DNA of 64,000 nucleotides from the NCBI RefSeq assembly GCF_004364585.1, contig NZ_SOAN01000009.1:1-64000 (forward strand), in the 5' to 3' direction. A model generated the notes under the pieces. It was not told where the DNA came from, searched no databases, and saw only the letters and a list, made by a program, of their open reading frames with translations. Position 1 is the first letter of the stretch, and each line of letters begins with the position of its first letter. A program made the translations under genes and the position numbers. The stretch comes from Nesterenkonia aurantiaca. GTDB lineage: Bacteria; Actinomycetota; Actinomycetes; Actinomycetales; Micrococcaceae. This document shows, piece by piece, positions 41,466 to 48,641 of the stretch.

Positions 41466-43082
<1,617 letters not shown>

Positions 43083-43095
43083 TAAAGGAGCAGCT

Positions 43096-44238
43096 TTGAG
43101 CAACGAGATCCCCATCGGCCTGGCCAAGAACGGCCGTCGGGCCTGGGCTCTGGACGATGTCGCCATCGTCCCGAATCGACGCACCCGCAGCCCCGCGGAT
43201 GTGAGTCTGGACTGGCGCATCGACGCCTACTCCTTCTCCATGCCCGTGGTCGGCGCCCCGATGGACTCGGTGATGTCCCCGGCCACCGCCATCGAGCTCG
43301 GCCGGCAGGGCGGTCTCGGGGTCCTCAACCTAGAGGGCCTCTGGACCCGCTACGAGAACCCGGAGCCGGTGCTTGCAGAGATCGCGGCGCTGGGCGCCGA
43401 GGAGGTCTCCGCGCAGAACACCCGCCGGCTGCAGCAGCTCTATGCCGAGCCGATCAAGGCCGAGCTGATCACCGCACGGCTGGCCGAGATCCGGGAGGCC
43501 GGCGTCGTCGTCTCCGGCTCGCTGACTCCCCAGCGCACCCAGGAGTTCTACAGCACCGTCATCGAGGCCGGGGTGGACATGTTCGTCATCCGCGGCACCA
43601 CCGTCTCGGCCGAGCACGTGGCGCAGAACGGTGACCCGCTGAACCTCAAGGAGTTCATCTATGAGCTCGATGTGCCGGTCATCGTCGGGGGCGCCGCGGG
43701 GTACACGCCTGCGCTGCATCTGATGCGCACCGGCGCCGCCGGTGTGCTGGTGGGCTTCGGCGGCGGCGCCGCCACCACCACCCGCCGCGCCATGGGCATC
43801 CGGGTGCCGATGGCCACCGCGATCAGCGACGTCGCCGCGGCCCGCCGGGACTACCTGGATGAGTCCGGGGGGCGCTACGTCCACGTCATCGCCGACGGCG
43901 GCATGGGCTCCTCCGGAGACCTGGTCAAGGCCCTCGCAATGGGCGCCGACGCCGTGATGCTCGGCACCACCCTCGCCCGCGCCGAAGAGGCGCCGGGGCA
44001 GGGCTGGCACTGGGGTCTCGAGGCGGTGCACCAGGACTTCCCGCGCGGCCACCGCACCCGGGTCGGGACCGTGGCGCCGCTGCAGGAGGTGCTCTGGGGG
44101 CCCGCGCATCACACCGACGGCTCCTCAAACCTGATGGGCGGCCTGCGCCACGCGATGGCCTCCACCGGCTACGTGGACCTGAAGTCCTTCCAACGCGTGG
44201 ACGCGATCGTCTCCCCGATGGGCCAGCAGACCCGCTGA
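43096..44238 (+). CDS. guaB3: GuaB3 family IMP dehydrogenase-related protein
   Basis: A 380-residue GuaB3, the third IMPDH-like family found mostly in actinobacteria. It lacks CBS domains. AWALDDVAIVPNRRTRSPADVSLDWRIDAYSFSMPVVGAPMDSVMSPATAIELGRQGGLGVLNLEG is typical, and RGTTVSAEHVAQNGDPLNLKEFI stands where IMPDH has its active-site loop. Enzyme activity differs from GuaB: reported GuaB3 proteins resemble GMP reductase or have IMPDH-like function, unresolved here. TTG start with AAAGGAG 6 bases upstream, 13 bases after guaB, so the two are one operon ending in a strong terminator. Confidence 0.92.
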   Translation: MSNEIPIGLAKNGRRAWALDDVAIVPNRRTRSPADVSLDWRIDAYSFSMPVVGAPMDSVMSPATAIELGRQGGLGVLNLEGLWTRYENPEPVLAEIAALGAEEVSAQNTRRLQQLYAEPIKAELITARLAEIREAGVVVSGSLTPQRTQEFYSTVIEAGVDMFVIRGTTVSAEHVAQNGDPLNLKEFIYELDVPVIVGGAAGYTPALHLMRTGAAGVLVGFGGGAATTTRRAMGIRVPMATAISDVAAARRDYLDESGGRYVHVIADGGMGSSGDLVKALAMGADAVMLGTTLARAEEAPGQGWHWGLEAVHQDFPRGHRTRVGTVAPLQEVLWGPAHHTDGSSNLMGGLRHAMASTGYVDLKSFQRVDAIVSPMGQQTR

Positions 44239-44343: not shown

Positions 44344-47300
44344 TCAGCAGCTGCCGGACTCCTCCCAGGGGCCATAGCGGCCTCCGGGCTCCTGGTTCCG
44401 GGTGTGCCACTTCGCGGTGTAGCTGACCCCGTCGTGGACGATGGTCTCGCCGCCGTCGAACTGTGAGCTCGGCGCCCACTGCGCCCACGTCTCACCGGAG
44501 CAGTCCGTGGGCGCACCGACCTGGGACCAGGCGCTCCACGGGGAGGCCCCGGGCTCCTGGTTCTGCGTGTACCAGAGCGCCCGGTAGACGCCGCCCTCAT
44601 GGCTCACGGTGTCACCGTTGGTGTAGACCGCGCCGGAGCTCCAGGCTTCGTGCTCCGGAGTCTCCTCCTCGTCCCCGTCACCGGGAGCCTCGGAACCTGA
44701 GAGGATCAGGTCAGCGAGGATCGGATCGTGGTCTGAGGAGCGCCACTGGTCCGGGGAGTAGAGCAGAGTCCCCACGGAGTTGTAGCGGCTGTACTCCAGT
44801 GCCAGCGGTTCCACGGAGTTGATGTTCCAGATCTCGGTCTGCACGACATCGGCTGCGGCGGCCTCCGAGGCGAAGAGGTGATCCAGGGATCCCACCGCAC
44901 CGTCGAACATGTAGCTGTACCCACCGGTCTGGGCCGAGAGGTTTGCGTAGCCGGCCTCAGCGATGACCTGCAGCGGGTCCTCCATCTCGTAGGAGTTGAA
45001 GTCGCCCATGAGGAAGGTCTTCCCGGTCGCGGCCTCCTCCTCGAGCGCATCGGCGAAGGCCACCAGCGCCTGCGCCTGCCGGACCCGGTCCCCGTTGAAG
45101 GAGCCCTGCCCGGTGGTGTCGGCGTTGTCGCCGCTGCCGCTGCCACCCTTGGACTTGAAGTGGTTCACGATCGCGAGGAAGCTCTCCTGGCTGTCCTCGG
45201 CTCCGTCTCCGAGGGCGGTGAACTCCTGGGCCAGCGGCTCCCGTGCGTTGGAGAAGATCTCCTCGAGGTCCAATCCGGCGAAGGCCTCCTGATCAAGGTC
45301 CTCGATCCCGTCCTCGAAGAGGATCCGTGAATCTCCCTCGGGCGCCACGCGATCGGTGCGGTAGATGAACCCGTTGCGGATCACATCCTCGTCAGCGGGC
45401 ACCTCCTCGGGGGATTCGACGTAGTCCCAGGTCCCCGCGGTGCCCTCGGCGCTGTTGAGCGCCTCGACCAGAGCGGCCAGAGCACGGTCACGGTCACCGT
45501 CTTCCACGAAGTAGCGGCTGTTCTCGATCTCCTGGAGGGCGACGACGTCGGCATCGAGCCCGCTGATCGCGGTCACGATCTTGTCCTCCTGACGCTCGAA
45601 GCTGGCCTGGCTGTAGGCTCCGCGGGCGTCGCAAAAGTCATTCGTGGTCGGGTTGCCATCGATATCGGTGTAGAACGCGCATCCGGGCTCATCCTCGCCC
45701 AGCGAGATGAAGTAGTTGAGCACGTTGAACCCGGCGATGCGCAGATCGCCCGCGCGCTCGGCGGGGGACTCGTTGCCCTCGCGGGTGTTCTCGAACTGCG
45801 CCGGCTGGATCTGCTCGGCCGTTTCGGGGGTGAGCTTGCCCAGCGGCTGGAGCCGCCATTCCTCGAACCGGTAGTCCATGATCACATCGGTCTGCCAGAG
45901 CACCTCGGCGCCGATCCGGATCGGATCCTCGATGCTCAGATAGGGCAGCGGCTTGTCCCGATCATCGCTCCAGCCCTGCCAAGAGGTCGACGCCGCGTCG
46001 TCCAGATAGATCACCCGCTCGGCGTTCTGCGCCGCCAGCGCCTCGGCCTCAGCGCCCGGGCGGAAGGCTGAGGTGGGATTGATCAGCGGCTCCTCGCCCA
46101 GGACGATGCCGATCTCGCCGTACTGGTTCAGCGTGTAGTGGTCGGTGACCGTGTAGCTGCCCTGCGGGTCCAGCAGCATGCCCAGCAGCGATTCGCGCTG
46201 CCGGGCATCCTCCGGAACCTCGAGAGAGGCCGGCTTGACCGCTTCGAAGGGTTCGTCCTCGATCAGCGCCAGCTCGTGGTGCGGGGTCTGGGTGGATCCC
46301 GGGTACAGCGCGATCTGTGGATTCTCGAAGTAGACGGTGGCGTCCCCGGTGATCTCCACGAAGTCCCCGATCTGCACGAGTTCCTGGGAGATCGCGGCGG
46401 GGGAGTAGACGAAGATCGCGTCCGAGGTCTCATGGCTGCTCAGATCAACATCGCCGCCGGAGCCTGCCGTCTGCAGGTAGAAGCCGTTGAAGCTCTGCTC
46501 GGCGGGGTAGACCGCGGTCACCACGCCCCGGGTGGTCACCGGGCGGTCCTCGCCATCGGAGTCCAGCGCGGCGTTGATCTCGGCGATCTCCAGCTCGCTG
46601 GGCTCGGTCGGAGTCGCCGGGTCAGTCGGCTCGGGTTCAGTCGGCTCCGGGTCTGCTGGGTCTGTCGGCTCGGGTTCAGCCGGGTCCGGGTCAGCCGGGT
46701 CCGTCGCGCCGAGGGTCTCGCCGGCGGCGTTGGTCGGGGAGGGCTCGCCGCGAGTGAAGTCCGCGGAGTTGTCATCGGTGTCCACACCCTCGGTCCGGCC
46801 GATCGAGGTGGTGTTCGTCGCGGCGGTGGCCGGTGCCTTCTCGAACGTGTTGGTCGTGCCGAAGCCCAGCAGGTCCGCCACCTGGTCATGCTTCAGCACT
46901 GAATCCAGCGGCAGCTCCTCCAGCGTCTCGGATGTGGTGGCCAGGATGAACGTGCCTCCCGCCGCAGCGCCGATGGCCACCCCGGTCTGGGCATCCGGGG
47001 TGGGCAGGGCTGCGCCGTCGCCGTTGTTCCCGCCGCCCTGGATCAGATAGTGCCCCCCGGGTTCGATCTCGCCGTCGAGCTCGACGGTGGAGCTCGGGGC
47101 GCCCGTGGACGTCCGGGCGCGGTACTGCAGCGACCACTCGCTGAGGTCCACGGCGGTCTCACAGGTGTTCAGCAGCTCCACGAACCGGTGGGAGAGGGCG
47201 GCGGATCCGCTCCCACCGTTCGGGAAGGCCTCATTGATCACGACGCAGTCGGTCCCCGCAGGACTGCCCTCCTCGGGGGCAGCGGAGTCGGTGGAGCCGA

Positions 47301-47406
47301 AGGCGGGGGCGGGGGCCAGCAGGGCCGCGCTGAGCCCCAGGGCGGCGAGTGCCCGCGGCAGCGGACGTCCTCGCCCTGGTGGGGCGCTCTGGTGGGGGAT
47401 GCTCAT
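44344..47406 (-). CDS. Secreted ExeM/NucH-type nuclease with LTD and two carbohydrate-binding modules
   Basis: A 1020-residue extracellular enzyme. Sec signal peptide in residues 1-37 (basic PLPRALAALGLSAALLAPAPA). Then a lamin-tail domain (VVINEAFPNGG...HRFVELLN) at about 50-190, a linker of DP/EP/TDP repeats at about 230-275, an OB-fold-like ExeM region with GVVTAVYPAEQSFNGFYLQT, and an endonuclease/exonuclease/phosphatase catalytic domain (about 545-865) with IAGFNVLNYF, VVALQEIENS, VNHFKSKGG, MGDFNSYEMEDP and the closing SSDHDPILADL. Two C-terminal CBM5/12-like modules (WSSGAVYTNGDTVSHEG... and WAQWAPSSQFDGGETIVHDG...) should bind chitin or similar. It likely degrades extracellular DNA for nutrients. 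It is strongly acidic. Start ATG at 47406 gives a clean signal peptide; ATG at 47427 is an alternative. Confidence 0.9.
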   Translation of the reverse strand: MSIPHQSAPPGRGRPLPRALAALGLSAALLAPAPAFGSTDSAAPEEGSPAGTDCVVINEAFPNGGSGSAALSHRFVELLNTCETAVDLSEWSLQYRARTSTGAPSSTVELDGEIEPGGHYLIQGGGNNGDGAALPTPDAQTGVAIGAAAGGTFILATTSETLEELPLDSVLKHDQVADLLGFGTTNTFEKAPATAATNTTSIGRTEGVDTDDNSADFTRGEPSPTNAAGETLGATDPADPDPAEPEPTDPADPEPTEPEPTDPATPTEPSELEIAEINAALDSDGEDRPVTTRGVVTAVYPAEQSFNGFYLQTAGSGGDVDLSSHETSDAIFVYSPAAISQELVQIGDFVEITGDATVYFENPQIALYPGSTQTPHHELALIEDEPFEAVKPASLEVPEDARQRESLLGMLLDPQGSYTVTDHYTLNQYGEIGIVLGEEPLINPTSAFRPGAEAEALAAQNAERVIYLDDAASTSWQGWSDDRDKPLPYLSIEDPIRIGAEVLWQTDVIMDYRFEEWRLQPLGKLTPETAEQIQPAQFENTREGNESPAERAGDLRIAGFNVLNYFISLGEDEPGCAFYTDIDGNPTTNDFCDARGAYSQASFERQEDKIVTAISGLDADVVALQEIENSRYFVEDGDRDRALAALVEALNSAEGTAGTWDYVESPEEVPADEDVIRNGFIYRTDRVAPEGDSRILFEDGIEDLDQEAFAGLDLEEIFSNAREPLAQEFTALGDGAEDSQESFLAIVNHFKSKGGSGSGDNADTTGQGSFNGDRVRQAQALVAFADALEEEAATGKTFLMGDFNSYEMEDPLQVIAEAGYANLSAQTGGYSYMFDGAVGSLDHLFASEAAAADVVQTEIWNINSVEPLALEYSRYNSVGTLLYSPDQWRSSDHDPILADLILSGSEAPGDGDEEETPEHEAWSSGAVYTNGDTVSHEGGVYRALWYTQNQEPGASPWSAWSQVGAPTDCSGETWAQWAPSSQFDGGETIVHDGVSYTAKWHTRNQEPGGRYGPWEESGSC

Positions 47407-47642
47407 CAAGGTGGAGTCTTCTTCCATTCGAGGTGATCGTCTCGTGCGCTCACCGATGGTCACGTCAGTGTTGTCACCGTGGACCAGGCTGCCGCGCAGA
47501 GCGCGCCGCAGACCCAGCCCACCATCGAATCCAAGCAGGGTCATGTGAACGGCGTGCTACAGATGAGGAAACCCGGCGCCCCATGTGACCTGCGAGGATG
47601 ACGGCGCAGCATGGGTCGGGAGGACGATGATGGTGCGCCACG

Positions 47643-47660
47643 TATACCCCCGGGGGTATA
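47643..47660. promoter_or_regulatory. CsoR/CstR-type operator palindrome
   Basis: Perfect 18-base palindrome TATACCCCC-GGGGGTATA. The right half overlaps a good -10, TATAGT (47657-47662), so a bound repressor would block the promoter. C/G-rich centre with TAT flanks is the pattern bound by CsoR/RcnR/CstR-family (DUF156) repressors of copper and sulfide stress. Confidence 0.65.
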
Positions 47661-47695
47661 GTGGGGATATCGTTCAACCGAGCAGAGGAGCCACC

Positions 47696-47857
47696 ATGTG
47701 TCGAGCCGTGACCTGCAAGACCTGTCACAAGACCACCTGGGCCGGATGCGGCCAGCATGTCGATCAGGTGATGCGCGGGGTCAGTCCCGCCCAGCGCTGC
47801 CCAGGCCATGAGTCCACGCGCCCCGACGGATTCTTCAGCAGGCTCTTCAGCCGCTGA
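47696..47857 (+). CDS. 53-residue Cys-rich protein behind a CsoR-like operator
   Basis: A very small protein with five cysteines, starting MCRAVTCKTCHKTTWAGCGQ. The spacing C-x4-C-x2-C-x7-C, plus HVDQVMRGV and a later QRCPGH, suggests a zinc- or copper-binding knuckle. The tail FFSRLFSR is hydrophobic and basic and might touch a membrane. GAGGAG lies 5 bases before the ATG. Upstream is the 18-base TATACCCCC/GGGGGTATA palindrome overlapping a TATAGT -10. I do not know a studied member; similar short proteins occur in actinobacterial genomes as hypotheticals. A role in copper, persulfide or other thiol-reactive stress is inference from the operator alone. Confidence 0.72.
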   Translation: MCRAVTCKTCHKTTWAGCGQHVDQVMRGVSPAQRCPGHESTRPDGFFSRLFSR

Positions 47858-48414: not shown

Positions 48415-48556
48415 GACCCCTCCAGGGGTGAGTGATGTGTGTCGGCGGATGCCGCAGGGCGCGCGTGCCAACGTTACCCCGGGTCCCAGATGCACAGTGC
48501 CGCCGGACACGAAGAAGCCCGCCGGTCTGGTGTCCAGACTGACGGGCTTCACTCGG

Positions 48557-48641
48557 CGGAGGATGGGGGATTTGAACCCCCGAGGGCGTGAACCCAACAC
48601 GCGTTCCAAGCGTGCGCCATAGGCCGCTAGGCGAATCCTCC
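48557..48641 (-). tRNA. tRNA-Ser (GGA)
   Basis: An 85-base serine tRNA. Acceptor stem GGAGGAT pairs with ATCCTCC, discriminator base G, T-loop TTCAAAT closed by GGGGG/CCCCC, long variable arm, and anticodon loop TTGGAAC with anticodon GGA (plus-strand 48605-48607), reading UCC and UCU. CCA is not encoded. It lies 67 bases upstream of the gluQ promoter region, on the other strand. Confidence 0.95.

Follow-up and report, generated by a model that had tools for sequence, protein, structure and literature searches.

The window, a 64,000-nucleotide stretch of the Nesterenkonia aurantiaca genome, contains a perfect 18-bp palindrome that is followed by a short open reading frame with its own predicted promoter and ribosome-binding elements (Table 1). 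A sequence-only reading had described this palindrome, its overlap with a TATAGT hexamer and a tiny five-cysteine protein downstream, all of which are borne out by the sequence; the distance from the palindrome to the ATG is 35 bases, not the 36 that it had counted. The palindrome occurs once in the window, even if three mismatches are allowed, and shuffled sequence gives 0.00 occurrences. Since the hexamer lies over the right half of the putative operator, a repressor bound there would obstruct RNA polymerase. A TATNNT hexamer is equivalently placed in 58 of the 64 distinct promoters of homologues, which makes repression by steric block the simplest explanation. Absence of a copper pump, rhodanese or csoR gene nearby had also been reported; indeed, the window holds no homologue of DUF156 proteins, rhodanese, CstB or CopA.

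Table 1. Features of the window, with positions counted from its first nucleotide
Feature	Positions	Strand	Basis or remark
Predicted CstR-type operator, perfect 18-bp palindrome TATACCCCCGGGGGTATA	47643-47660	.	Sequence; conserved before orthologues
16-bp operator core ATACCCCCGGGGGTAT, ATACC-N6-GGTAT (TAC-X8-GTA), with G/C tracts	47644-47659		
-10-like hexamer TATAGT, overlapping the operator right half	47657-47662	+	Sequence
Ribosome-binding site AGAGGAG, 5 bases 5' of the ATG	47684-47690	+	Sequence
53-codon Cys-rich miniprotein gene	47696-47857	+	ATG 47696-47698; TGA ends at 47857
Large secreted protein, resembling an extracellular endonuclease, with lamin-tail-like and C-terminal carbohydrate-binding-like repeats	44344-47544	-	By reading
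Tandem pair of IMP-dehydrogenase-like genes	41523-44238	+	By eye
tRNA-Ser(GGA), adjoining a lipoprotein-like gene	48555-48641	-	

When the open reading frame is compared with its relatives, five of seven pairs have most of their substitutions at codon position 3 and the fewest at position 2. By this codon-position bias, and by conservation of the protein in hundreds of genomes, the 53-codon frame is a real gene. Its product (MCRAVTCKTCHKTTWAGCGQHVDQVMRGVSPAQRCPGHESTRPDGFFSRLFSR) has cysteines at positions 2, 7, 10, 18 and 35, histidines at positions 21 and 38 and a C-terminal GFFSRLFSR tail. Met1, Cys2, Cys7, Cys10, Lys12, Thr14, Trp15, Gly17, Cys18, Gly19, His21 and Cys35 are invariant in 48 homologues, so that all five cysteines are conserved, and the family follows the pattern MCRAVTCxxCGKTTWAGCGQHVDxV...RCxGH. 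In 138 distinct homologues, a second ligand-type residue comes after Cys35 in every case, in the form CxGH (126), CxC (six) or CxGxH (six), with two unparsed cases of the 138 assigned by eye. Since histidine and cysteine replace each other here, a metal site is suggested, with zinc as the simplest candidate. A hydrophobic-basic tail similar to GFFxRLFGR is present in 124 of the 138. Proteins that start with Met-Cys are substrates of methionine aminopeptidase, and an N-terminal cysteine is therefore expected.

Searches of Pfam, NCBIfam and PDB sequences, with both the single protein and the 48-member alignment, returned chance matches only. Neither Foldseek (all E > 4) nor VIA-align matched the AlphaFold2 model of the miniprotein (mean pLDDT of 80, pTM of 0.54) to a fold and, thus, no fold is claimed. 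No published description of the miniprotein or of the motif MCRAVTC was found in the literature on CstR and sulfane-sulfur operons, taken mostly from outside the subscription journals, which is not proof of absence.

The palindrome had been attributed to the CsoR/CstR (DUF156) family of regulators. This attribution is strongly supported by conservation of the palindrome and by the presence in the 2.95 Mb genome of two DUF156 proteins, both encoded outside the window. The sequence data thereby contradict the outcomes that had been named as refuting it, namely homologues that lack the conserved cysteines or the palindrome and a genome devoid of DUF156 regulators. One of these, a CsoR (C1:341290-341556), adjoins copZ/copA, has S. 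lividans CsoR as its closest match (4adz, E = 5e-31) and retains the Cys-His-Cys copper pattern (Cys31, His56 and Cys60). The other (C8:107628-107903) contains only two cysteines, Cys36 and Cys65, with an alanine at position -4 from the second, and has no histidine anywhere; with two cysteines and no copper-ligand histidine, it was assigned the CstR pattern. Its cysteines are spaced like Cys37 and Cys66 of the polysulfide sensor ScCsoR (PMC7533328). The gene is the last of an operon that also encodes an MBL-fold/rhodanese fusion (CstB/PDO type), a rhodanese with a YgaP-type transmembrane domain and TauE.

Operator length allows the two proteins to be told apart. ScCsoR, the sulfane-sulfur sensor of S. 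coelicolor, recognizes ATACCn6GGTAT, from which polysulfide releases it (PMC7533328), while the site of the copper CsoR in S. lividans is ATATACCCCTNAGGGGTATAT, which is 17 bp long (TAC-X9-GTA; PMC3902906). The miniprotein promoter carries a 16-bp site and not the 17-bp ATACC-N7-GGTAT copper operator, which points to CstR rather than CsoR as its regulator. Exact ATACC-N6-GGTAT occurs three times in the whole genome, once before the miniprotein gene and twice, 32 bp apart (C8:104594 and C8:104626), before the cst operon. The proposal that the miniprotein would be the sole target thus holds within the window and fails genome-wide, where this operator type is common to the cst operon. Exact ATACC-N7-GGTAT also occurs three times, in every case at copper genes: before csoR/copZA, before an HMA-domain gene with a downstream multicopper oxidase and before the gene of a P-type ATPase whose N-terminus is rich in histidine. 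Where the sequence-only reading had left a choice between a sensor of Cu(I) and one of persulfide, the 16-bp spacing strongly favors persulfide and the 17-bp length of the genome's copper sites disfavors copper.

The same separation is seen throughout the genus. A 17-bp site is present at 19 of 30 csoR loci and a 16-bp site at none. The pattern ATACCC-N4-GGGTAT occurs at 65 sites in 30 genomes of the genus, with a reversed-pattern control near zero; as counted by hand from their positions, 50 of these sites are within ~4 kb of cstR (cst operons), 11 precede the miniprotein gene, two precede a membrane-protein gene that neighbors that of the miniprotein (G237) and two are elsewhere (G165 and G252). 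The difference between 16 and 17 bp therefore separates persulfide from copper targets of DUF156 regulators in the genus and makes the regulons readable from sequence.

Orthologues of the miniprotein are present in 138 of 245 genomes of the family and 12 of 30 of the genus, and a species-level collection contains at least 386 candidate loci. At 80 named loci, a palindrome lies within 100 bp of the gene in 46, with an operator-to-ATG distance that is mostly 34-39 bp at orthologues. A further 32 lack their own operator and are located directly beside cstR, cstB, rhodanese or TauE genes on the same strand, and two (L047 and L095) have neither an operator nor sulfur-gene neighbors. The 894 kb around the 80 loci contain 104 16-bp sites, one 17-bp site and zero 18-bp sites. 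In an operon of the Curtobacterium plasmid pC1a, the order is cstR, miniprotein (unannotated), rhodanese, DsrE and TauE, and further downstream are trxA and a gene for an MBL-fold protein; most of the plasmid copies listed are without an annotated gene.

CstR is present in 135 of the 138 family genomes that have the miniprotein gene versus 30 of the 107 that lack it (Fisher p ~1e-34, a value that ignores shared ancestry). Within the genus, the association is weak, with the miniprotein in 12 of 24 genomes with CstR versus 0 of 6 without it (p = 0.057). Two of the three family genomes that have the gene without CstR belong to one genus (G041 and G088); the G041 protein is divergent, with no operator and no sulfur neighbors. 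CstR occurs without the miniprotein in 30 family genomes and 12 genus genomes, indicating that the miniprotein is an accessory and not an essential part. It was not found in the sampled genomes of one group with genomes of 6-10 Mb, probably Streptomyces. A divergent paralogue (...NWCPGH...) in G251 (L223, 2125-2394) faces copZA across a 17-bp CsoR-type site and is possibly a copper-controlled branch; when it served as a query to look for more copies under copper control, most of the hits were orthologues already identified, which have a 16-bp site or adjoin cst genes.

Given the operator identity, spacing class, conservation, linkage and co-occurrence with cst genes observed by comparative genomics, the miniprotein gene is highly likely to be a member of the CstR regulon. 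The best overall explanation, which we hold with moderate confidence, is that it encodes a CstR-repressed, persulfide-induced and probably zinc-structured miniprotein that accepts or relays sulfane sulfur. The repressor acting at the palindrome would be the CstR-type protein, not CsoR. In unstressed cells, CstR positioned over the -10 element would keep the gene off. As persulfide or polysulfide builds up, both CstR cysteines would be modified and CstR would leave the DNA, and the miniprotein would then be made along with the persulfide dioxygenase-rhodanese, the rhodanese and the sulfite exporter of the distant cst operon. We infer CstR binding, persulfide induction, metal binding and sulfur transfer on this basis. 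The metal site may be formed by C7xxC10...C18xxH21 and/or C35xGH38, and the reactive thiol that takes up or relays sulfane sulfur may be that of the invariant Cys2, predicted to be N-terminal after removal of the methionine, possibly with one more cysteine. The sulfur-carrier biochemistry is put forward tentatively.

Several alternatives were weighed against this explanation. According to the main rival, the protein belongs to the persulfide regulon and yet is no sulfur carrier, acting instead as a zinc-binding or redox-switch adaptor (a zinc buffer, chaperone or regulator) whose GFFxRLFGR tail docks a partner as persulfide rises. Such a role would agree with the ligand-type residue that accompanies Cys35 in all 138 homologues, with the widespread tail and with the zinc-limitation response triggered by sulfide stress in S. 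aureus (PMC5480029). However, one zinc site needs fewer than five invariant cysteines and the neighboring genes mostly encode sulfur-transfer enzymes (rhodanese, DsrE and persulfide dioxygenase), so that we regard an adaptor as rather unlikely. Dual control, with CsoR and CstR both binding the palindrome and copper and persulfide both inducing the gene, is improbable: the two operator classes have similar half-sites, and in S. aureus the cst operon and the copAZ operon are both induced by HNO, but a single base pair strictly separates the classes across the genus and S. aureus CsoR does not respond to sulfide (PMC5480029).

The sequence-only reading had listed a metallochaperone, a copper scavenger and a persulfide carrier as possible functions, of which the last is favored. 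A copper scavenger or metallochaperone under CsoR would be consistent with a Cys/His-rich miniprotein behind a DUF156-type palindrome and with the G251 paralogue opposite copZA; it is very improbable given the 16-bp site, the placement of all three 17-bp sites of the genome at copper genes and the clustering of orthologues with sulfur genes, and the spacing together with the genome's own copper sites led to its rejection as the main explanation. A chance palindrome before a spurious open reading frame has nothing in its favor except the small size of the frame. It is refuted by conservation of both operator and protein across many genera, along with the absence of matches in shuffled sequence, and its probability is negligible. 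Thus, the miniprotein very probably belongs to the cell's response to reactive sulfur rather than to copper, as a component that has been overlooked.

MymT of M. tuberculosis is a Cys-rich copper metallothionein of 53 amino acids that belongs to the RicR regulon, under a DUF156 repressor. The miniprotein has the same length and is similar in cysteine content and type of repressor, a likeness by description and not by sequence comparison, and differs from this copper-regulon protein in having an operator of the 16-bp type, not the copper type. With the S. lividans CsoR copper regulon, it shares the regulator family and TAC/GTA half-sites with G-tracts, whereas the operators there are 17 bp long (TAC-X9-GTA) and serve copper targets, compared with 16 bp (TAC-X8-GTA) here (PMC3902906). 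Other parallels are with sulfur systems. The ScCsoR/SCO0620 circuit of S. coelicolor likewise consists of a two-Cys DUF156 repressor and 16-bp ATACCn6GGTAT operators, two of them before the persulfide dioxygenase gene, with pdo-rhodanese, rhodanese and TauE as targets; no miniprotein is described there, while a third operator is located here at an unlinked miniprotein gene (PMC7533328). The CstR of S. aureus similarly senses persulfide and represses genes for a CstB-type dioxygenase and for sulfurtransferases, but was found to control a single operon (PMC5480029), in contrast to the second, monocistronic target predicted here, the Cys-rich miniprotein. In the YrkD cluster of Bacillus licheniformis, a CstR-like repressor is placed over the sulfur carriers DsrE, TusA and rhodanese, and no miniprotein of this kind was found described for it (PMC9918477).

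The predicted CstR operator is of a known regulatory kind and its Cys-rich miniprotein target appears to be a new component of the persulfide response. To our knowledge, few small persulfide carriers are known, namely TusA, DsrE and rhodanese. It is quite possible, if less likely than not, that the N-terminal-Cys miniproteins, an unnamed family widespread in actinobacteria, are dedicated persulfide carriers or sensor-effectors of the CstR response and represent a carrier type unrelated to these three. Being conserved, rich in cysteine, often missed by annotation and associated with the CstR operator or operon in the majority of the genomes studied, such a miniprotein would add a new component to persulfide chemistry.

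Further observations were made outside the window. In the genome, CsoR-type operators of 17 bp accompany two sets of copper genes that are not linked to each other (C1:218647 and C2:206762; L262 and L264). One set comprises genes for an HMA-domain protein and a multicopper oxidase, the other a P-type ATPase gene close to a DUF305 gene. In G237 (C57; L222, 1634-2221), a predicted membrane protein, VKOR-like by eye, is encoded beside the miniprotein with two 16-bp CstR-type sites immediately upstream, and its gene is possibly a further CstR target. A homologue with 70% identity to the miniprotein is also found in a phage record from human faeces (MT835623.1, 19139-19300).
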